Shown here piece after piece: positions 11,907 through 34,234 of a DNA stretch of 64,000 nt. Origin of the DNA: Marinobacterium halophilum (GTDB taxonomy: Bacteria; Pseudomonadota; Gammaproteobacteria; Pseudomonadales; Balneatricaceae); the NCBI RefSeq assembly GCF_003014615.1, contig NZ_PYGI01000006.1, positions 62,001-126,000 of the forward strand, read 5' to 3'. The notes beneath the pieces are model-generated. The model saw only the letters and a list, made by a program, of their open reading frames with translations, ran no database searches and was not told the DNA's origin. The position numbers and the translations under genes were made by a program. The stretch's first letter is position 1. Each line of letters starts with the position of its first letter.

Positions 11907-14456
11907 ATGCTGCGTAAATTAGCCTTAAGCCTTGCGATCTCAGCAGCTCTGGGGGCGTCACAGGTTAATGCCCTTGGGCTCGGGGAAATTAAAGTCAACT
12001 CGGCTCTGAATGAGCCGCTTGATGCCGAGATAAAACTGACGCAGGTTCGCGACCTCTCTCCATTGCAGATTCAGCCACGAATGGCGTCGCTGGATGAATA
12101 CGCGACTGCCAGTGCCAGTGGTCAATCTCGTTATTTGCGGGATATTCAGTTTCAAGTGCTGGTGTCACCTGAAGGTAATGGCCGTATACGTCTCAAATCA
12201 ACTGAGCCGGTGCAAGAGCCGTTCCTGAACTTCATGGTGGAAGTGAACTGGCCCAGTGGACGTTTAGTACGTGAGTACACCTTGTTGCTGGATCCCCCGG
12301 TTTTTGAGCCGACACCGGTTGGGCAGTCATTTACAACGGCCAGTGTGCAGCCGCGCCCTGCGGTGGCAGTTCCGCCGCAGAATATCCGTACCCGTGCCAC
12401 GAATGACGGCCAGATGTATGTAGGCGTCAACGACACCTTGTGGGAAATCGCCAAGAACACCAAGCCTCAGGGTACCACTGAGCATCAGATGATGATGGCG
12501 ATTCTGAGTAAAAACCCTCAGGCATTTCCCTCCGGGAACATCAATAATCTGAAGGCTGGTGTGGCCATTGATATTCCATCGGCCGCGGAAGTACAACGGC
12601 TGACACACCGGGAAGCCGTTGCTGAAGTGGCGCGTCAGATGCAGATGTGGCGTGACGGCAAGACTACGGTTCAGGCGCAACCCAAAGCGCCAGTGGATGT
12701 CAGTAAGCCTTCGGCTACCGCCGAGGCTCTTGTCGCTGATGCGGGCTCCGATGACGCGCCGGCGGAAGGGCAGCTCACGGTTGTAACGCCCCCTGTCGAG
12801 TCGATAGATCCTGTTGAAGCAGCGCCCGCAGGCGATAATATTGATGCAGATGCAGCTGAAATGTCTCGTGTCGATGAGACTAATCAGCAGGTTGTTTCTG
12901 CTGCGGCCGAGCGTTTGGAAAGTGAAGTAATCGTTGCTCAGGAGAAGATTGATCGCCTTGAGCGTGACAACTCGGACTTGAACAATAAACTGGACTCCGT
13001 GCTGCAACAACTGGAGTCGCAGAGTCGTTTGTTGGAGCTGCAGTCCCAGCAGATGTCCACGTTGCAGTCCGAGTTGGGACAGCAGAGCGTTGCACCGGTT
13101 GAGTCCGCTGATACCGTTGCGCAGCAGCCATCAATGTTGCAGAGCCCTGCCGTGTTAGGTGGCTTGGGGGCTGGTGTGTTGGCGCTGTTGGGTGGTGTCT
13201 GGTTTATTCTGCGTCGTAAGCGCAACGGGGAAACTGGGGGCAAGCGTGATCTGGTGAGTGTGCCGGATGATTTACGTGATGATGCCGATGTGGGGGATTT
13301 GGCCGTCGGGGCAGCAGCCTTGGCTGGCGCTGCGGTGGTGGCCGATTCTCTGGCTCAGGACAAGCCTGCTCCGTTGGGTGAGGCTGAGCAGGGCACGGAT
13401 TCTGATTTTGTGCGCCCACCTATGCAATCGTTGGCACCTGAAGAAGAGGTTACGGTTGAAGATGACCTGACGGATCTGGATGGTGATCTGCAGGATCTTG
13501 ATCTCGACATGGATCTTGATCTTGATGATCTGGAGATGCCGAATGAGACGGTAGCCGCCAGTACTATTGATGCCGCCGAGTTTGACCTGGGTCTTGAAGA
13601 AGAGATTGAAGTCGCCGCCGATGATGCCTCTGCAACCGAAACCGATGAGCTTGAATTCAAGGTTGAGCAGCCTGCCTTGGCTGAAGCCGAGGAGGCCAGT
13701 GAGCTTGATGGTATGCTGGCCGACGATGATCTGGATGATGATCTGGATTTCTTGTTGGGTGACAGTGTCGGTGATAATGACAGTGTCGAGACTTCTTCAC
13801 TGGATGAAGAGCTTGATTTCGGATCCTTGTCTGAATTGACGCTGGATGAGGCCTCTGAGGAGGAGTCGCTGGAAAATGAGCAGGATCGTGTAGACAATAG
13901 TCTGCATGAAACGGTTGAATCTGCACCTGAGCTTGAATTTGAGGTCGATCCAGAACTGGAAGCCATGCTTCAGGGTGGTGTCGGCGCGGATGAAGGTACT
14001 GAAAATGAAGTTGAATTTGGTGCCGGCTTCTCGGATGATAGTGACAACGCAGATGATGACCTGGATAGCCTGCTTGCATCCTTTGATCCTGAAGAGTCGG
14101 TTAACACCGCTCCTGTCAGTCGTTTCAGTGCGGGTGAAGCGGTAGAAGAAGAGTTGACCGCCAATATCTCTCACGACCTTGAGATGGACCTGGATTCTGA
14201 AGTTGAAGACCTGTTGAACAGCACCGATGATGACATCGCGCTGGAAGAACAGGGCAGCGGCGAGCAGGAAGATGTATTTGATAAGCTGAATCTGCTCAGT
14301 GATGCCGATGAAATAGAAACCAAGCTGGATCTTGCTCGTGCCTATATCGAAATGGACGATGGCGAAGGCGCGCGTGATATCCTGAACGAAATTACCGGTG
14401 AAGGCTCCGACAGTCAGCGACAAGAAGCGCAGAAGCTGCTGGAGACGCTGGGTTGA
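11907..14456 (+). CDS. fimV: FimV/HubP-family polar landmark protein
   Basis: A large inner-membrane protein that in relatives anchors polar machinery and type IV pilus or flagellar placement and binds peptidoglycan. Visible order in the 849 aa: signal peptide (1-22), FimV N-terminal domain (about 23-130), LysM-like peptidoglycan-binding domain (about 168-224, with VNDTLWEIA), coiled coil (about 322-392), a single membrane helix (about 412-434) before RRKR, a long Asp/Glu-rich cytoplasmic region (about 450-790), and a short conserved TPR-like C-terminal domain (about 800-849, LDLARAYIEMDDGEGARDIL). The acidic region is highly repetitive in composition, which explains the long antisense open frames there. 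Neighbours truA and usg match the pseudomonad order. Confidence 0.92.
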   Translation: MLRKLALSLAISAALGASQVNALGLGEIKVNSALNEPLDAEIKLTQVRDLSPLQIQPRMASLDEYATASASGQSRYLRDIQFQVLVSPEGNGRIRLKSTEPVQEPFLNFMVEVNWPSGRLVREYTLLLDPPVFEPTPVGQSFTTASVQPRPAVAVPPQNIRTRATNDGQMYVGVNDTLWEIAKNTKPQGTTEHQMMMAILSKNPQAFPSGNINNLKAGVAIDIPSAAEVQRLTHREAVAEVARQMQMWRDGKTTVQAQPKAPVDVSKPSATAEALVADAGSDDAPAEGQLTVVTPPVESIDPVEAAPAGDNIDADAAEMSRVDETNQQVVSAAAERLESEVIVAQEKIDRLERDNSDLNNKLDSVLQQLESQSRLLELQSQQMSTLQSELGQQSVAPVESADTVAQQPSMLQSPAVLGGLGAGVLALLGGVWFILRRKRNGETGGKRDLVSVPDDLRDDADVGDLAVGAAALAGAAVVADSLAQDKPAPLGEAEQGTDSDFVRPPMQSLAPEEEVTVEDDLTDLDGDLQDLDLDMDLDLDDLEMPNETVAASTIDAAEFDLGLEEEIEVAADDASATETDELEFKVEQPALAEAEEASELDGMLADDDLDDDLDFLLGDSVGDNDSVETSSLDEELDFGSLSELTLDEASEEESLENEQDRVDNSLHETVESAPELEFEVDPELEAMLQGGVGADEGTENEVEFGAGFSDDSDNADDDLDSLLASFDPEESVNTAPVSRFSAGEAVEEELTANISHDLEMDLDSEVEDLLNSTDDDIALEEQGSGEQEDVFDKLNLLSDADEIETKLDLARAYIEMDDGEGARDILNEITGEGSDSQRQEAQKLLETLG

Positions 14457-26336: not shown

Positions 26337-28934
26337 TCAGACTTCTACAGTTGGGATGAAAGTCGACGCTTTGGCGACGTAGCTGTCCATCTGATCGAAG
26401 TTCAGGTAACGGTAGATCTCGCCAGACATGCTGTCGAGTTTGCTAGCGTATTCCATGTACTCGGAAACGGTCGGCAGTTTGCCTTCCAGTGCCGCAACAG
26501 CCGCCAGTTCAGCGGATGCCAGGAATACGTTGGCGCCATCACCCAGACGGTTCGGGAAGTTACGAGTTGAAGTCGATACAACTGTAGACTTCGCGGCTAC
26601 ACGTGCCTGGTTGCCCATGCACAGGGAGCAGCCCGGCATTTCCATGCGCGCACCGGCTTTGCCGAAGATGTTGTAGTAACCTTCGTCGCTCAGCTGAGCC
26701 TGGTCCATTTTGGTCGGCGGTGCGATCCACATGCGTGTCGGGATGGACTTGCCTGAGGACTCCAGCAGTTTACCAGCGGCACGGAAGTGGCCGATGTTGG
26801 TCATGCAGGAACCGATGAAGACTTCATCGATGCTCTGGCCAGCCACTTCAGACAACAGGCGTGCATCGTCCGGATCGTTCGGAGCACACAGGATCGGCTC
26901 CTTGATTTCGGACAGATCGATTTCGATCACTTCAGCGTACTCGGCATCAGCGTCTGCACGCATCAGGCTCGGGTTCGCCAGCCACTCTTCCATGCCCTTG
27001 ATACGACGTTCGATGGTACGTACATCGCCGTAGCCTTCAGCGATCATCCACTTCAGCATGACGATGTTGGAACGCAGGTACTCGGCAACGGAATCGTCGG
27101 ACAGAGTGATGGTGCAGCCTGCAGCGGAACGTTCTGCAGAGGCGTCGGACAGCTCGAATGCCTGCTCAACGGTCAGTTCTTCCAGACCTTCGATTTCCAG
27201 TACGCGGCCAGAGAAGGCGTTCTTCTTGCCGGCTTTCTCTACGGTCAGAAGACCCTGTTTGATCGCGTAGTAAGGAATCGCATGCACCAGATCACGCAGG
27301 GTGATACCGGCGTTACGCTTGCCCTTGAAGCGAACCAGGATGGATTCCGGCATGTCCAGCGGCATAACACCGGTGGCAGCTGCGAAGGCAACCAGACCAG
27401 AACCGGCAGGGAAGGAGATGCCCAGCGGGAAACGGGTGTGGGAGTCACCACCGGTACCGACGGTATCCGGCAGCAGCATGCGGTTCAGCCAAGAGTGGAT
27501 AACACCATCGCCCGGACGCAGGGAAACGCCGCCGCGGTTCATGATGAAGTCCGGCAGAGTGTGGTGGGTGTTGACGTCAACCGGCTTCGGATATGCAGCG
27601 GTGTGGCAGAAAGACTGCATGGTCAGGTCAGCTGAGAAGCCCAGGCACGCCAGGTCTTTCAGTTCATCACGGGTCATCGGACCAGTGGTGTCCTGAGAGC
27701 CAACGGTGGTCATCTTCGGCTCGCAGTACATGCCCGGACGAACGCCGTCCATGCCGCAGGCCTTGCCGACCATCTTCTGAGCCAGGGTGAAGCCCTTGCC
27801 GGTATCAGCCGGCTGTTCCGGTTTGCGGAACAGTTCGAAGTTTTCCAGGCCCAGTGCTTCACGTGCTTTCTCGGTCAGACCGCGACCGATGATCAGCGGG
27901 ATACGGCCGCCTGCGCGGACTTCGTCCAGCAGAACCTGAGTTTTCAGGCCGAATGTGCAGATCACTTCGTCAGTGCCGTGCTTGCAGACTTTACCTTCAT
28001 ACGGGTATACGTCGATGACGTCACCCATGTTCAGGTCTTCAACCGGCATTTCGATCGGCAGAGCGCCCGCATCTTCCATTGTGTTGTAGAAAATCGGAGC
28101 GATCTTGTTACCGAAGCAGTAACCGCCGGCGCGTTTGTTCGGTACGAACGGGATGTCGTCACCGAAGAACCACAGCACGGAGTTGGTTGCCGATTTACGG
28201 GAAGAACCGGTACCGACTACATCACCCACGTAAGCAACCGGGAAGCCTTTTGCTTTAACTTCTTCGATCTGTGCCAGCGGGCCTGTAACGCCGTGTTCTT
28301 CCGGGTTGATCCCTTCACGTTCCATCTTCAGCATCGCGTTGGCGTGCAACGGGATATCGGGACGCGACCAGGCATCCGGAGCCGGAGACAGGTCATCAGT
28401 ATTGGTTTCGCCCGGTACCTTGAATACGGTAACGGTGATTTTTTCGGCAACTTCCGGCTTGGAAGTGAACCACTCGCCTTCAGCCCAGGACTGCATGACC
28501 TGTTTGGCGTGAGCGTTACCTGCTTCGGCTTTCTCCTGTACATCATGGAAAGCATCAAACATCAGCAGGGTGTGTGACAGTGCCTTGGCAGCAGTCGGGG
28601 CCAGTGCGTCGATATCCAGGCATTCCACCAGGGGAGCAATATTGTAGCCGCCCAGCATGGTGCCCAGCAGCTCAACAGCTTTGACCTGGTCGATCAGAGG
28701 GGAAGAGGCTTCACCTTTGGCGATCGCTGCCAGGAAGCCAGCTTTTACGTAAGCAGCCTGGTCAACGCCCGCCGGCACACGATTGGTGATCAGCTCGAGC
28801 AGGAACTCTTCTTCACCGGCAGGCGGTGCTTTCAAGAGTTCGACCAGAGCAGATGTCTGTTCAGGATCAAGCGGCTTCGGTGGTACGCCTTCTGCGGCGC
28901 GTTCTTCTACATGTGTACGATAAGCTTCAAGCAC
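26337..28934 (-). CDS. acnB: Aconitate hydratase B
   Basis: The main TCA-cycle aconitase, which interconverts citrate and isocitrate through a 4Fe-4S cluster; AcnB also binds RNA in its apo form in E. coli. From the GTG at 28934 the protein has 865 aa, the same as E. coli AcnB, and begins (M)[15 protein letters not shown] in line with it. GAGG sits 7-8 bases upstream. The frame is open 8 codons further to another GTG. The order is HEAT-like domain, swivel domain, then catalytic domains. Cluster ligands are in [16 protein letters not shown] and [12 protein letters not shown]. It is transcribed alone. Confidence 0.97.
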
Positions 28935-29057
28935 GATATGGCCCTCATCTGTTTTCACCGCCGGACGCCGGAGTGGTAAAACCCCACCGACGGCGTATCG
29001 ACTAGGTATCGAATGGTGATTGGCGAGCGAATTCTAGCGGAAGCAGGGGCTAAAGTT

Positions 29058-29077
29058 AAGATTGTGTCGACAATCTT
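29058..29077. promoter_or_regulatory. Inverted repeat in the acnB / roadblock-operon divergent region
   Basis: AAGATTGT (29058-29065) and ACAATCTT (29070-29077) form a perfect 8-bp dyad around 4 bases. It lies 124 bases upstream of acnB. It may be an operator for acnB; no regulator can be named. Confidence 0.4.
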
Positions 29078-29153
29078 GCTCTTAGACTTTCGACCAAATT
29101 GACTGATATGTAAGCAATATTGATAGAAAGCTGTTGATGCTGGTCAATATTCA

Positions 29154-29193
29154 TTTAGCTGTGTTTGAATTCGAGCTAAAAGCTACGTATAAC
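29154..29193 (+). promoter_or_regulatory. Promoter with overlapping inverted repeat for the roadblock operon
   Basis: TTGAAT (29165-29170) and TATAAC (29188-29193) are exactly 17 bases apart. The dyad TTTAGCT (29154-29160) / AGCTAAA (29174-29180) flanks the -35 box, so a bound regulator would cover the promoter. It is 37 bases before the first gene, which has a consensus AGGAGG. Confidence 0.5.
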
Positions 29194-29229
29194 AGTCGAA
29201 TACATTATCTCAGGTAGGAGGTAGCCTTG

Positions 29230-29700
29230 ATGAGTTCAGCACACAGTCAGGCTGAAATCGCACAGGATGAGCGCGCGGTAAAAGCAAATCTGCAACTCAG
29301 TAAATTGCAGGTCATGTTTCATTTGCAGGCCGATAAGCGACTGATCTATGTAGGTGTGCAGCCAACTGTTGCGTTGCGCTACCTGACGCGGCTGGTAGCT
29401 GCAAGGCCGCGCGTGTTGCGGAATCACATTCGGCGCATCTACCTTGCCATTCAATGTGCAGACAGTGATCGGTTGACTGGTGCGCTGATCGATTTGCTTT
29501 TGGTGTTGCGTGGACGAGGCCAGTTTTTGGTCGACCGTTTGGTCAAGCAGTCCGGGCCGTTGCTTCAATCCGAACACCGTACCGCTATCAAGAAAGCGAT
29601 TGATACGCGTGATCTGTCACGGCTTGCTGAATTGCCGCTTGATTTTGCAGTATTGAGCAATGGGCGTTGCATGCAGTTTTCAAGACAGAAAGTACACTGA
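29230..29700 (+). CDS. Hypothetical protein, first gene of roadblock operon
   Basis: I do not recognise this 156-aa protein. It is basic, predicted mostly helical, and lacks signal peptide and membrane segments. The centre (about 45-110) is Arg-rich with the pattern RPRVLRNHIRRIYLAIQ. ATG 29230 is preceded by a full AGGAGG (29216-29221), stronger than at most genes in the window. It is 22 bases upstream of the 413-aa gene and in the same direction, so it belongs to the same operon. A nucleic-acid or partner-protein contact is possible from its charge, but there is no motif to prove it. Confidence 0.75.
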   Translation: MSSAHSQAEIAQDERAVKANLQLSKLQVMFHLQADKRLIYVGVQPTVALRYLTRLVAARPRVLRNHIRRIYLAIQCADSDRLTGALIDLLLVLRGRGQFLVDRLVKQSGPLLQSEHRTAIKKAIDTRDLSRLAELPLDFAVLSNGRCMQFSRQKVH

Positions 29701-29722
29701 GCGCTCATAGAAGGATTCGAAC

Positions 29723-30964
29723 ATGCCGGTCGGTGGTAATCATTCCATAGGAATTATCGGCTTTGCTGCAAATGAAGTGGCAATGCTGGAGATTTTTTTT
29801 AAAAGCAACAAGGCTAAAGGCTTTAACCTGGTAAAGCCTGAGCTGTCCGATAGTTTGCTGGTTGGCTTCAGTGATAATGATGCCAGGGAGCAGGTTGAAA
29901 AGTGGTTGCAGAATGACCGGCGGCCATTTGTTGCGGTGGTTGATGCCGCAACCTCTCGGAATGTCGCCAATACAGGTATAAAAATCAGTCGTCCTCTGAC
30001 CTTGATTGCACTGCAGGAGGCTCTGGTGCAGTTAAGCGCCCGTCTTGCTGCAGGGCCTGTCGAAGAGGGTGAGCGGGTTGTCAGTGAGGTCGTCAGTGCG
30101 CCCGGTAACGCCCGTGACGCCGTGTTCGCCGAGTGGGAAGCGCGAAAGCAGCGCAGTAGTGAGGCGTTGTCGGCATGGAAGGGTGATTCTGCTCAGCGTG
30201 AAGGCGAAGCACTGCGTAGTCGTTTCAGTCTTGAACGCAGCGAATTGAATAGCTTGATTCTGGAAGCTCAAACTGAGTTGCAAAAGCAACAGGCCAAGCG
30301 GCCAGTGCGTGTAGAGCCCCAGCCAAAGCCTGCTGCTGTTGTGGAAGATGAGGCGCCGCCGCCAAAACTGTCGGTCGAGATGATTCAGCAATGCTGTGGT
30401 AGCTTGCCGGACGTCAACCTGGACTCGGTGACTGAGCGGCGTAGGGTTTATTTCAGTCTTGATGGACTGTTGCTGCCCTGGATTCAGCGTTGTGTTCGCC
30501 TTGGTGATGAAACAGGTAAGGTGCAGCAGGTTGTTGGTGTACCGGGGGCGCTATTTTATTTGCCGGGGGAGAAAGTATTTCTGGTTGGGTTGGATGCGGA
30601 TCTGTTGCTTCAGTTGACACGAACCCGCTTCGGCTTTGATGAAATATCCCTGCAGGAACGTAGCGCCGAGTCAGAACTGCCACATGGCAGAAAAGTCGCG
30701 TCCGATGAGTTGATGTGGCAGTTGGCACTTTTTACTGCTCGTGGGCGCATCCCTGATGCACTGTCGGCGGAACAACCCAGGTTATTGAATGAGATGCCGG
30801 ACTTTGAGCGGCTTTTGGAAACGCCTCATGCCAGAAGCATTGCAGAGCTATGGCAGAGTCAGCGATTGTCAGCTCAAAGCGTCGCATCCATGTTGGGCGT
30901 GCCTCAGCGTTTTGTTTTCTCGTTCTTTGTGGCAGCGGACGCCATCGGTCTGTACTGTCCCTGA
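29723..30964 (+). CDS. Uncharacterised protein with receiver-like N-terminus and C-terminal helical domain
   Basis: A 413-aa soluble protein. Residues 5-112 alternate short strands and helices (IGIIGFAAN, then FVAVVDAAT, then ISRPLTLIALQEALVQL), which looks like a degenerate response-regulator fold; the phospho-acceptor set is not clearly conserved. Residues 130-205 are helical and charged. The C-terminal third (about 325-413) has WQLALFTARGRIPDAL, then PHARSIAELWQ, then VASMLGVPQRFVFSFFVAADAIGLY, reminiscent of a helix-turn-helix-like module in uncharacterised proteobacterial proteins. It lies between the small basic gene and the divergent roadblock gene. The function is unknown; an adaptor or regulator for the roadblock proteins is my inference. 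Confidence 0.75.
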   Translation: MPVGGNHSIGIIGFAANEVAMLEIFFKSNKAKGFNLVKPELSDSLLVGFSDNDAREQVEKWLQNDRRPFVAVVDAATSRNVANTGIKISRPLTLIALQEALVQLSARLAAGPVEEGERVVSEVVSAPGNARDAVFAEWEARKQRSSEALSAWKGDSAQREGEALRSRFSLERSELNSLILEAQTELQKQQAKRPVRVEPQPKPAAVVEDEAPPPKLSVEMIQQCCGSLPDVNLDSVTERRRVYFSLDGLLLPWIQRCVRLGDETGKVQQVVGVPGALFYLPGEKVFLVGLDADLLLQLTRTRFGFDEISLQERSAESELPHGRKVASDELMWQLALFTARGRIPDALSAEQPRLLNEMPDFERLLETPHARSIAELWQSQRLSAQSVASMLGVPQRFVFSFFVAADAIGLYCP

Positions 30965-31008
30965 CCGGAAACGTGTGTCTCACACTATGGATATTTCGGA
31001 GTTAAACC

Positions 31009-31641
31009 GTGAATCAAGAACATAATGATACCCCGCGGTATTTTCAGGTCACGCCCAGCGGCGCATATTATGCGACGCTGAATACCGAGTCGGAGACTCT
31101 GCGGGCACTGTTGTTACAGTTGCTGAGCGCAGATACACATATACCTTATCTTGGATCTCTGTTGCAAAAGTTGACCGGGCTGCCGGAAGTCGAAGCAGAG
31201 ACCTTGCTGGACAAAGCTGTTCAGCATGGTTTTGTTGATCTTCCCGAGGCACCTGAAGCTGTTGCAGCGGGTACGATTGAAGAGATTCTACCCAAGGTGT
31301 TGCCCAGTCTTGCTGATGGGCGCGTGCTGTTGGCGGATGATCAGGGTTTTTGCCTTGGGCAATCCGGCTTTGAGAACGAAGAAGCCGAGGCAATTGCAGG
31401 TATGGCTGCAGACCTGGTATCGATGCATGAGCGCCACCAGGCGCTATTGGGTCGACATTTGGGTATTGACGGCTCTTCCTGGGCGCTGATCGATGCAGTA
31501 GGGCAAAGTGAGCTTGGTTTCTGGACGCTACATGTCGGGGAGCAAAAGTTTCTCTTGATATTGGAAGGGATGCCACATCTCAATCGGCAGCCTTTTGTGG
31601 ATTTGATGTCGGTTTTGATCCGACGTTACCTGGATTACTGA
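31009..31641 (+). CDS. Divergent roadblock-like protein
   Basis: A 210-aa soluble protein with a GTG start, CGGAG upstream. The first 80 residues are helical and end with a winged-helix-like TLLDKAVQHGFVDLPEAP. Residues 95-210 read as a divergent roadblock/LC7 fold: helix EEILPKVLPSLA, strands VLLADDQGFCLGQSG, long helix from about 120 to 150, strands SWALIDAV, FWTLHVGEQKFLLILEG, then a final helix FVDLMSVLIRRYL. The fold call is based on pattern, not on strong identity. The next gene codes for a classical roadblock protein, so the two may form a heteromer. No motif suggests enzymatic activity. Confidence 0.72.
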   Translation: MNQEHNDTPRYFQVTPSGAYYATLNTESETLRALLLQLLSADTHIPYLGSLLQKLTGLPEVEAETLLDKAVQHGFVDLPEAPEAVAAGTIEEILPKVLPSLADGRVLLADDQGFCLGQSGFENEEAEAIAGMAADLVSMHERHQALLGRHLGIDGSSWALIDAVGQSELGFWTLHVGEQKFLLILEGMPHLNRQPFVDLMSVLIRRYLDY

Positions 31642-31705
31642 TGAAGCGGGTTGGCCGTTTCATACAGGATTAAAACCAGCGCTAATGGCCTAAAAGGAGA
31701 CTACC

Positions 31706-32068
31706 ATGCGCTCAGAAATGTTGACTTCTATTCTTAACGATCTCAACGGTACATCTGCTGAAATCGAAGCTTCGGCTGTTATTTCAACAGATGGTTTGGT
31801 TATTGATGCGCTGCTGCCGGCCAGCATGGACGAAGACCGTGTAGGCGCGATGAGTGCAGCTATGCTGTCATTGGGTGAGCGTACGTCCCAAGAGCTGGCC
31901 CGAGGTGAGCTTGAGCAGGTTCTGGTCAAGGGTAAAGATGGTTACATCCTCATGACCCATGCGAATCAGGAATCTGTATTGACCGTGGTCGCGAAGACCA
32001 ATGCACGTCTGGGTCTTATCTTTCTGGACGTTAAGCGTGCAGCTGATGCGATTGGCAAGATTCTCTGA
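31706..32068 (+). CDS. Roadblock/LC7 domain protein
   Basis: A 120-aa single-domain protein of the roadblock/LC7 (MglB-like) family. It opens with an amphipathic helix (MLTSILNDLNG), then strands and a long helix in the family order: ASAVISTDGLVIDALLPA, then GAMSAAMLSLGERTSQEL, then VLVKGKDGYILMTHANQ and VLTVVAKTNARLGLIFLDVKRAA. Known relatives dimerise and regulate small Ras-like GTPases (MglB with MglA in Myxococcus). No GTPase gene is in this cluster. A consensus AAGGAGA precedes the ATG. It is the fourth gene of the operon. Confidence 0.9.
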   Translation: MRSEMLTSILNDLNGTSAEIEASAVISTDGLVIDALLPASMDEDRVGAMSAAMLSLGERTSQELARGELEQVLVKGKDGYILMTHANQESVLTVVAKTNARLGLIFLDVKRAADAIGKIL

Positions 32069-32140
32069 ATCTTTTTTAGTGCCAGGCGTGCTGAATACGG
32101 TTAAGTAGGCTGCACGCTGTTTTCTCGGTCTGGAGTGCCT

Positions 32141-32602
32141 ATGTCCGAACAAGATACCGGCTCAGTTGGAGAGGTGCTGATCAAATACTATGACGGTACT
32201 GAACGATTGGCTAAAATCGTGGATCGTGAAGTGCCTTATCCTGATGGCAAGTTGATCGTCTCCCGTACTGATCCAAGTGGCATTATTACGCATGCCAATC
32301 GCGCTTTTATCGAGATGTCCGGATACACGCGAGAAGAGCTGATTGGGGTGAATCATTATATTTTGCGTCATCCGGATATGCCGGCTGTCGCGTTCAAGGA
32401 TCTTTGGGATACCGTTGCTCAAGGTAAAAAATGGCAAGGTTATGTCAAGAATCTACGGAAGGATGGGGCTTATTACTGGGTTAAGGCAACGGTAATTCCC
32501 AATATTCGCAATGGTGAGCTTGTCGGGTATACATCCGTACGACGCAAGCCATCTCGCAGCAAAATCACGGAGAGCGAAGCTCTTTATGTGACACTGCGAT
32601 AG
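32141..32602 (+). CDS. Single PAS-domain protein (Aer-like PAS)
   Basis: A 153-aa soluble protein that is essentially one PAS domain (about 35-145). The sequence VSRTDPSGIITHANRAFIEMSGYTREEL, the YILRHPDMPAVAFKDLW segment and the NLRKDGAYYWVKATVIP strand closely follow the FAD-binding PAS of the aerotaxis receptor Aer. There is no kinase, methyl-accepting or cyclase domain, so it must signal through a partner. ATG 32141 has TGGAG upstream. Redox or energy sensing through a flavin is plausible by similarity to Aer but not shown. Confidence 0.85.
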   Translation: MSEQDTGSVGEVLIKYYDGTERLAKIVDREVPYPDGKLIVSRTDPSGIITHANRAFIEMSGYTREELIGVNHYILRHPDMPAVAFKDLWDTVAQGKKWQGYVKNLRKDGAYYWVKATVIPNIRNGELVGYTSVRRKPSRSKITESEALYVTLR

Positions 32603-32615
32603 GTAAGGTGCTGCC

Positions 32616-33362
32616 ATGACATTAAATTTATCGGTGAGCCCGGATTTTCCGCCTACTCACCTCTCTGGCTGGTTTATCTTCAATACCTGGCTGCAGCGTC
32701 AATTGAATACGGGTGTTCACTTGGAGCTGTATGACAGCTTTGATGCCCAGCGGGAAGATATTCGCAATGGCAAAATCGATCTGATCTACGCGAACCCCTA
32801 TGATGCTTCAATGTTGGTGCGCGAACTTGGTTTCAAGGTGTTGGTGCGTCCTCGTAATCGTGCAGACGAAACCGTAATTGCAGCCCGTCATGATGACCCG
32901 CGCAGTTGTGTTGAAGATCTGGGTGCGGGGATCAATATTGCAACGACGGCTGATCCTGATGTGCATACCATGGGCATGATCATGCTGGAGTCGGCTGATT
33001 TGGATAAAACCAATGTCAGTTTTCAAGAGTGTGATAGTTATGTTCTGGTCGCCAAGGCACTGCTGAATGGGCAGGCTGATGCCGGATTCTTCCTCAAAGA
33101 CGGTTATGACGAGCTTTCTGAACTGGTGCGTCATAAAATGAAGATGCTGGTCAGCAGTCAGATCAGTGTTGTTCATCATACTTTGGTTGCTGGTCCTAGA
33201 ATGCAAGAGCATGCGGAGTTGCTGACGGAGCGTCTACTGGGGATGGAAGAAGATCCCAAGGGGCGTGATGTGCTTAAGAGCATGGGGCTTGATGGCTGGG
33301 ATGTAATGGAAGATGAGCAGACTGAGTTCATGATCGATTTGATCGATACCTTGATCGATTAG
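32616..33362 (+). CDS. PhnD-like phosphonate/phosphite binding-fold protein without signal peptide
   Basis: A 248-aa protein of the PhnD-type periplasmic-binding fold (PF12974-like). It starts directly at the first strand LNLSVSPDFPPTH, with the typical later segments KIDLIYANPYDASMLVRE and NGQADAGFFLKDGYDEL. There is no signal peptide and no ABC permease or ATPase gene nearby, so it appears to be cytoplasmic and to work as a ligand-binding or sensory module rather than in transport. It starts 13 bases after the PAS gene and ends the operon, 22 bases before a strong terminator. Confidence 0.82.
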   Translation: MTLNLSVSPDFPPTHLSGWFIFNTWLQRQLNTGVHLELYDSFDAQREDIRNGKIDLIYANPYDASMLVRELGFKVLVRPRNRADETVIAARHDDPRSCVEDLGAGINIATTADPDVHTMGMIMLESADLDKTNVSFQECDSYVLVAKALLNGQADAGFFLKDGYDELSELVRHKMKMLVSSQISVVHHTLVAGPRMQEHAELLTERLLGMEEDPKGRDVLKSMGLDGWDVMEDEQTEFMIDLIDTLID

Positions 33363-33384
33363 CAGTTGATGCGTGTTCATGCAT

Positions 33385-33412
33385 AAAAAAGGTGCCTTTG
33401 GGCGCCTTTTTT
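33385..33412 (+). terminator. Terminator ending the roadblock operon
   Basis: AAAAAAGGTGCC (33385-33396) pairs with GGCGCCTTTTTT (33401-33412), with one G-T pair and a TTTG loop. The flanking A and T runs make it usable in both directions. Confidence 0.88.
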
Positions 33413-33568
33413 GTTTCAGGTGTTCCGTCCTGACTAAGGTTGGTTCGCTGGAATGTTGTATGACTGCCTGAAGTGGTAAATTCACCCCTGAATTTGTAGA
33501 CTTCCCGCATTGTTGCTCCCTACTGTTTATCTTTAAAGTATGTGTACGAAAGTGAGTGGTTTAAATTT

Positions 33569-34234
33569 ATGGAAGTACTAAGAGAGATTAAGGCATTTCT
33601 AGGGGCTGAGACACCCGAGGAATGGCTGCAGTTGGCTGCAAAACAAGAGTGCATGCAGTTGTTGCTCACGGACCATGCCCATTGCGAAAAGAAGGCCGCG
33701 TCCACAGCCATGACGCTGATGTTTCGTTATGTGGATCGAGCCGATCTGTTGAATAAAATGTCACGCCTGGCGCGTGAAGAGTTGATTCATTTTGAGCAGG
33801 TCCTGGGTTTGATAGAGGCCAGGGGGTTGAAGTATGGACATTTGAGCCCTGCACGCTATGCGGCGGGTATGCGGACGGATGTGCGTACCTCGGAGCCGGG
33901 GCGTCTGATCGACGTGCTGATTATCGGTGCATTTATTGAGGCACGATCTTGTGAGCGTTTTGCCGCGTTGGCACCGGATCTGGATGATGAGTTGGCGCGA
34001 TTCTACCGCTCGCTACTCAAGTCGGAGGGGCGTCATTATCAGGATTACCTGAGTTTGGCGCAGGCCTATGCCGATGAGCCGATTGATGAGCGTGTAGAGC
34101 ACTTTCGAAAGTTGGAAGCGGAGCTGATCCTGGCGGAGGATGACGAGTTTCGCTTCCATAGTGGCAAGCCTAGTGCGGCGCTGCTAGCGAATCCTTCAGC
34201 TTTGCTGCAAGCGGAGTCTGTGCAGGCAGGTTGA
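33569..34234 (+). CDS. miaE: tRNA-(ms2io6A)-hydroxylase
   Basis: A diiron monooxygenase that hydroxylates the isopentenyl group of 2-methylthio-N6-isopentenyladenosine at tRNA position 37. The 221-aa helical protein carries the metal-ligand motifs DHAHCEKKAA, REELIHFEQVL, and IEARSCERFAAL, typical of MiaE. I chose ATG 33569 (MEVLREIKAFLG), which fits the family; a GTG at 33542 is possible. Its last 65 bases overlap the end of lpxH on the other strand. Confidence 0.93.
   Translation: MEVLREIKAFLGAETPEEWLQLAAKQECMQLLLTDHAHCEKKAASTAMTLMFRYVDRADLLNKMSRLAREELIHFEQVLGLIEARGLKYGHLSPARYAAGMRTDVRTSEPGRLIDVLIIGAFIEARSCERFAALAPDLDDELARFYRSLLKSEGRHYQDYLSLAQAYADEPIDERVEHFRKLEAELILAEDDEFRFHSGKPSAALLANPSALLQAESVQAG

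Follow-up and report, generated by a model that had tools for sequence, protein, structure and literature searches.

The accepted role of roadblock proteins is to regulate small GTPases or to serve as scaffolds for them, and the genome of Myxococcus, for one, holds an MglA. The described systems closest to the locus analysed here are the Group 3 MglA systems, which, according to the portions of Wuichet and Sogaard-Andersen (2014; PMC4316618) available to us, combine a partner protein (receiver-like N-terminus, variable linker and winged-helix-like C-terminus) with MglA and one or two MglBs, and are almost confined to beta- and gamma-proteobacteria. The same portions give the GTPGQ motif for MglA Groups 2–5 and report orphan MglBs, including those of conservons that lost mglA, none of which had then been characterized. 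For a Group 3 genome of Snodgrassella, the accessible part of the article describes that an altered orphan MglB changed spreading on soft agar, an effect attributed to type IV pili, and that the orphan MglB affects colonization (PMC11112851). The subject of this work is a six-gene operon in a 64,000-nucleotide stretch of Marinobacterium halophilum DNA (contig NZ_PYGI01000006.1), here called the window. The ancestor of this operon was of the Group 3 MglA/MglB type, with the order A-B-MglA-C-R, often then followed by PAS and PHN genes, and the GTPase gene was lost on the branch to a group comprising Marinobacterium, Nitrincola, Amphritea and Neptuniibacter.

The window corresponds to positions 62001-126000 of contig C6 in the source genome (G000; 3.65 Mb in 47 contigs), whose nearest relatives are Marinobacterium species (R 98 % identical in loci L001-L004). 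The operon and its features, in window coordinates, are as follows.

29227-29700, + strand: gene A, 157 amino acids, from the open reading frame call; a helical protein, N-terminal part only
29723-30964, + strand: gene B, 413 amino acids; modelled receiver-like N-terminal domain (about residues 4-114), linker and helical C-terminal domain
30965-31008, no strand: B-C spacer, 44 bases; site of a gene for a GTPase of the MglA type (about 180 amino acids) in relatives
31009-31641, + strand: gene C, 210 amino acids; N-terminal helical domain and, in the model, a divergent roadblock/MglB-fold domain (about residues 87-209)
31706-32068, + strand: gene R, 120 amino acids; classical roadblock/LC7 protein (MglB family)
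32141-32602, + strand: PAS gene, 153 amino acids from the ATG (listed as 155 if begun at the GTG at 32135); predicted stand-alone Aer-type PAS
32616-33362, + strand: PHN gene, 248 amino acids; PhnD-like (PF12974) substrate-binding fold
33383-33414, + strand: intrinsic terminator, a 14-pair hairpin and T run

Successive genes from A to PHN are spaced by 22, 44, 64, 72 and 13 bases, and the terminator hairpin has a folding energy of -19.3 kcal/mol (z -4.4; equalled by none of 200 shuffles). An earlier note on this DNA had described six same-strand genes with gaps of 13 to 72 bases between one promoter and one strong terminator; the reading frame coordinates and the hairpin agree with this, whilst the promoter was not confirmed, a consensus scan giving no sigma-70-like site on the + strand ahead of gene A. 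Across the region the scan returned four sites against 6.0 expected, no excess and weak evidence either way.

With the R protein as query, we compared the best 80 of 337 relatives' loci, taken from contigs of one genome per species. Homologues of A were present in 75, of B in 80, of C in 80, of R in 79 (by hidden Markov model), of PAS in 60 and of PHN in 58, part of the absences being due to contig ends, and the order of those present was identical in all 80. Adjacency is thus deeply conserved, rather than the homologues lying scattered, a possibility the earlier note had allowed for. In 28 of these loci, B and C were separated by an additional gene of about 180 amino acids, which was missing from the other 52 and from the window; all 28 fell outside the group formed by Marinobacterium, Nitrincola, Amphritea, Neptunomonas, Neptuniibacter, Pontibacterium and Motiliproteus. 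This gene encodes a Ras-like GTPase with the motifs GPVGAGKT and GTPGQERF; two examples match Pfam Ras at E 3e-7 and 6e-8. Among the matches of its profile are Rabs and the MglA of T. thermophilus (1.7e-5, 27.9 bits), so the profile reaches distant MglAs.

To these loci were added 60 further regions from other genomes, being matches in a class sample (370 genomes; R in 79, the GTPase in 77, both in 70) and a family sample. In total 119 loci carried both C and R above the score limits (113 distinct rows, some strains being duplicated between collections), with the GTPase gene present in 60 and absent from 59. Where B, the GTPase and C were all present, the GTPase gene lay between B and C without exception (59/59), and the order A-B-GTPase-C-R(-PAS-PHN) was found in other gamma-proteobacterial families. 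As relatives carry the GTPase gene at exactly this position, its absence is a derived loss. On the tree, 57 of the 59 GTPase-less loci, the window included, belong to the window's group and lie on one side of a single branch (Shimodaira–Hasegawa-like approximate likelihood ratio test support of 100); L171 and L191 account for the remaining two and are separate from these. The rest of the operon core was retained: B, C and R were present in 52/52 group loci among the best 80, B as two fragments in L008.

The ends of two neighbouring genes were lost as well. Past its conserved core, B carries a tail of 33-48 residues in all 59 GTPase-bearing loci with B, compared with 1-19 residues in the group (56 of 57 loci measured). 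The tail of relatives is basic and amphipathic, for example RGLFSRLLKRLLGG; the last 24 residues of B have a mean net charge of +5.0 and a mean best hydrophobic moment of 0.74 (mean z 1.35 versus shuffles) in GTPase-bearing loci, and +0.9, 0.47 and z 0.1, respectively, in GTPase-less ones. In GTPase-bearing loci a median of 10 bases separates the GTPase gene from the 3' end of B, which codes for the tail, so a single deletion could remove both, and their joint loss is therefore not independent evidence of a shared function. L171 and L191 retain the B tail, which means that loss of the GTPase alone is possible. Searching L171, L191 and L196 by tblastn for remnants of the GTPase yielded fragments only (E 0.019 or worse). 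The A protein measures 148-190 residues in the 55 group loci that have it; of the 55 GTPase-bearing loci with A, 53 encode at least 225 residues and the remaining two 156 and 197. An alignment of 10 sequences places the missing part at the C-terminus. Since the start of B lies between the end of A and the GTPase site, the shortening of A is a second change. Lengths of A and B were taken from the first start codon of the longest reading frame and are possibly some residues too long, and for a phylogenetic sign test of GTPase against B tail the tree held too few independent pairs.

The retained R protein is a classical roadblock/LC7 protein, as had been proposed for the 120-amino acid product (Pfam Robl_LC7, E 1.3e-16, 60.6 bits, cut-off 23). 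The best solved structure for its profile is 7f8m, a Thorarchaeota roadblock (E 5.9e-29), and the profile also matches CvnB5 (4.7e-11) and M. xanthus MglB (0.0017). The suggestion that the 210-amino acid protein is a divergent roadblock relative is upheld by its structural model (predicted local distance difference test score of 90.5), in which C has a roadblock fold: residues 87-209 superpose on M. xanthus MglB with Z 11.4 and a root mean square deviation (rmsd) of 2.7 over 108 residues. By sequence, the Robl_LC7 match of C is sub-threshold (E 0.03, 14.5 bits), and profile-profile comparison of C with R (hhalign) gave a probability of 0.5 %, so that homology did not show by sequence alone. 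R is under extreme purifying selection, with a ratio of non-synonymous to synonymous substitution rates (dN/dS) of 0.013 for 21 pairs among the window and L001-L006, 0.035 across a wide group set (18 of 28 pairs usable) and a mean pairwise identity of 89 % in the group. Wide-set values for C and PHN came from end-anchored ungapped codons, are unreliable and were left unused. The Asp-Gly pair of MglB, predicted to lie near MglA in the available text of Wuichet and Sogaard-Andersen (2014; PMC4316618), is kept by R in 55 of 57 group loci, the exceptions being Asp-to-Glu in L077 and L211. Substitutions fixed or nearly so in the group are Gly87Asn, Ala90Ser, Asp58Glu and Leu95Val; position 87 is Gly in 67/67 GTPase-bearing loci and Asn in 57/57 group loci. 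Asn87 was considered as a mark of release from the GTPase and rejected, as Gly persists in four of the five other GTPase-less loci (L171, L185, L191, L196) and the fifth, L212, carries Ser; we treat Asn87 as a group marker.

Neither A nor B has a Pfam domain match. The 413-amino acid B protein had been considered an unknown, a label that no longer applies: residues 6-114 of its model match a receiver domain (Z 12.5, rmsd 2.6 over 109), and on this modelled fold B is the receiver-like partner protein of a Group 3 system. The model also contains a confident helical C-terminal domain, and fold-search hits spanned residues 4-114 only; the partner protein of this family ends in a predicted winged helix according to the part of Wuichet 2014 seen (PMC4316618). 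A corresponds to the N-terminal part of a helical protein of about 245 amino acids, and the extra C-terminal part in relatives (about 90 residues) shows a weak tetratricopeptide repeat match below the Pfam cut-off. The earlier note could not match the gene combination to a described system, yet its core does match Group 3: a receiver-like partner, B, stands in one operon with MglB-type proteins, R by sequence and C by modelled fold, and relatives of the operon carry a GTPase with the GTPGQ motif that the available text assigns to these MglAs. The locus differs in that the MglA gene is missing here and throughout a whole group of loci, and in having A, PAS and PHN, which go unmentioned in the Group 3 description in the available parts of PMC4316618.

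The PAS protein (Pfam PAS_3, E 2.7e-17) finds its nearest solved structure in the PAS domain of E. coli Aer (E 1.5e-35). Aer contacts its flavin through H53, R57, W70, N85 and R115 (PMC9668731, accessible part), with which H72, R76, W89, N104 and R134 of the window protein align, and all five residues are at least 95 % conserved among 78 operon PAS proteins. The protein is likely to be of the Aer type and is predicted to bind flavin, in keeping with its first description as a lone Aer-like PAS domain. Likewise, the PhnD-like fold ascribed to PHN was recovered (PF12974, E 3.7e-39, 135 bits, cut-off 27), as was its want of a signal peptide: PHN begins MTLNLSVSPDF, directly at the first conserved stretch, with no signal peptide visible by eye. 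It is flanked by PAS upstream and miaE downstream, with no adjacent permease or ATPase, and a search against PDB sequences gave no match at E 0.001. In the class sample, PHN matches of at least 42 % identity adjoin R in 18/18 genomes (source included), and six weaker matches (25-33 %, four genomes) do not lie beside R. PAS and PHN occur together in 51 of the 59 GTPase-less loci and in 25 of the 60 GTPase-bearing ones. The pair was considered as a replacement for the GTPase, a candidate discarded because those 25 loci have all three. Two loci show departures from the usual arrangement. In genome G433, R is duplicated and the operon is split into A-B-C-R (L213) and R-PAS-PHN alone (L212), a duplication that hints at R-PAS-PHN as a unit. 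In L171, an extra divergent PhnD-like gene (244 amino acids) lies between C and R on the minus strand from 9484.

The absence of a GTPase gene from the six, as pointed out in the earlier note, holds for the operon, and the distant MglA-like GTPase that it proposed to look for exists elsewhere in the source genome. One good match (E 5.9e-35) was found on contig C19, in a four-gene unit. The first of the unit's small proteins has a sub-threshold Robl_LC7 match (E 5.7e-4) and the second has none. The closest relative of the unit is a similar four-gene unit in G443, with a GTPase 68 % identical. Because no GTPase match occurs in any of seven congeners and a transposase-like reading frame, identified by eye, lies nearby (L084:1819-2565), the C19 unit looks accessory. 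In the family sample of 116 genomes, a related GTPase domain was found in 41, source genome included, and R in 62. These domains lie mostly within open frames of 316-379 residues; the L117 and L131 proteins listed below measure 318-343 amino acids.

L084:8611-6286 (G000:C19), - strand: mgl-like unit; B-like protein (329 amino acids), GTPase, two small proteins
L117:1429-2460: GTPase-domain protein; MglA-like domain and long C-terminal part, with a roadblock match, below threshold, after the GTPase domain
L131:1489-2445: GTPase-domain protein; MglA-like domain and long C-terminal part, with no roadblock match

GTPase matches were absent from 21 of the 62 R-bearing family genomes, including all seven congeners, in which R is 97-98 % identical. 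A profile search covered 21 genomes: the source, the seven congeners, 11 group genomes picked for having R and no GTPase match in the family-sample search, G129 and G086. A convincing match was obtained in G000 only, and in 0/7 congeners and 0/11 group genomes; the matches in four other genomes, congeners in two cases, were fragments of 26-55 residues (E 0.016-0.05). The genus keeps the operon without any profile-visible MglA, this strain excepted.

These data give an even chance, in our estimation, to the operon, a descendant of a Group 3 operon, being a roadblock platform with redox and ligand inputs that works without a GTPase of its own. R and C would form the platform, which would no longer need a cognate GTPase. 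The PAS protein would report respiratory or redox state by means of its flavin, and PHN a small anionic ligand, both in the cytoplasm, and the platform would pass the combined state to B, with its receiver-like and helical domains, and to A, both of which would now be soluble rather than membrane-bound. As output, either transcription or a programme of the cell surface (type IV pili, polarity) would be probable. A more specific form, in which an MglB-type pair signals without any GTPase at all, integrating redox state (PAS with flavin adenine dinucleotide, FAD) and a cytosolic phosphonate- or phosphate-like ligand to feed the receiver-like output protein, is put forward more tentatively, its chance falling somewhat short of even. 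Several observations weigh against a platform free of its GTPase. Phylogenetically, the whole loss pattern amounts to one event, and the losses of the GTPase and of the B tail may be one contiguous deletion. The kept Asp-Gly pair could, by sequence, mean that a GTPase still binds. PAS and PHN are not both present in 8 of the 59 GTPase-less loci, with 15 changes on the tree, and from the pattern of presence they are neither a GTPase substitute nor always needed. In the family sample, R is present in 41/41 genomes with the GTPase domain and the domain in 0/54 genomes without R (Fisher p 9e-16, without correction for kinship), evidence in favour of R being linked to an in-trans GTPase in part of the family, across many genera.

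This family-wide co-occurrence makes a live rival of the idea that the roadblock pair continues to control a GTPase acting in trans, namely the C19 MglA here, the GTPase-domain proteins in Amphritea- and Neptuniibacter-like genera and an undetected G protein in the congeners. The retained Asp-Gly pair speaks for it, as does the C19 unit, in which B'-MglA' precede two small proteins and the first of these shows a trace of Robl_LC7, but the C19 GTPase has neighbours of its own, the association takes no account of kinship, a third of R-bearing family genomes (21/62), every congener among them, lack a match, and the sensitive profile yielded short fragments at best in the congeners and group genomes; overall we consider this unlikely. 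Slightly better placed, although still doubtful, is a polarity or type IV pilus module, in which the roadblock platform by itself, acting through polar landmark proteins, would produce the output of an MglA system. Among 124 loci compared, 16 GTPase-bearing ones have a FimV/HubP-like gene on the same strand downstream and 16 have a bactofilin-like gene upstream (counts from clusters, domains checked on few examples), and these neighbours in Thiothrix/Leucothrix-type relatives suggest that the full system acts at the cell pole; the soft-agar effect of the Snodgrassella orphan MglB points the same way in the available text of PMC11112851. However, neither cluster has a member within 8 kb of the operon in GTPase-less loci, and the linkage could be local to Thiothrix/Leucothrix relatives. 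We regard with similar doubt a redox- and ligand-responsive transcription regulator, in which the helical C-terminal domain of B, perhaps with the N-terminal domain of C, would bind DNA. The winged helix-turn-helix predicted at the end of the Group 3 partner (Wuichet 2014; PMC4316618, in part) and the confidently modelled helical domain of B are consistent with this, yet that domain lies outside the fold-search hits, and the basic amphipathic tail that follows it directly in relatives would be odd for a DNA-binding protein. By far the least probable is a decaying mgl operon relic with no present function. Loss of the GTPase and shortening of A and B would fit such decay, but the selection data for R contradict it, and B, C and R persist together in every group locus among the best 80.

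Set beside other described systems, the operon shares single features with several. Orphan MglBs (Snodgrassella mglB-3 and Myxococcus MglC; PMC11112851, available portion) are likewise roadblock proteins without a coupled GTPase of their own, but their genomes hold an MglA, whereas 7/7 congeners here showed none and the operon around R is otherwise intact. Actinobacterial conservons (CvnA-D) also combine a roadblock protein with signalling partners in an operon, and the R profile matches CvnB5; in place of the CvnA histidine kinase and CvnD GTPase, this operon has receiver-like, PAS and PHN proteins. The FAD-PAS domains of E. coli Aer and MmoS are of the same PAS type with the same flavin contacts, but the operon PAS is stand-alone, cytosolic and devoid of further domains. 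Ragulator and Asgard roadblocks share the fold, 7f8m being the best structure match of R, and differ in that no Rag-type GTPase was found and the context here is a bacterial operon. PHN shares PF12974 with PhnD-type binding proteins of ATP-binding cassette importers, but not their signal peptide or adjacent permease and ATPase. A literature search limited to titles and abstract beginnings among the matches listed, with few subscription journals, gave nothing on a roadblock-PAS-PhnD operon and nothing on Group 3 systems or a clade without MglA.

Around the operon, an aconitase B gene lies upstream in divergent orientation and miaE lies downstream of PHN; tandem repeats were sought in 28900-33600 and none were found. 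The genome's FimV/HubP C-terminal domain is encoded in the window at about 14319-14450 on the + strand, which places it roughly 15 kb ahead of the operon. In L063, L064 and related loci, GTPase-bearing mgl operons have a FimV/HubP-like gene downstream and a bactofilin gene upstream.

In sum, a whole bacterial group has deleted the GTPase of this operon and kept the roadblock partner nearly frozen. The group amounts to a natural experiment on what the platform does alone or with a borrowed GTPase, for which sister loci that bear the GTPase, part of them retaining these PAS and PHN genes, are ready controls. To our knowledge no input has been described for this class of bacterial small-GTPase systems, and a flavin PAS together with a cytosolic binding protein is a likely one attached to it. 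The orphan-MglB question thereby becomes directly testable in easily grown marine bacteria.

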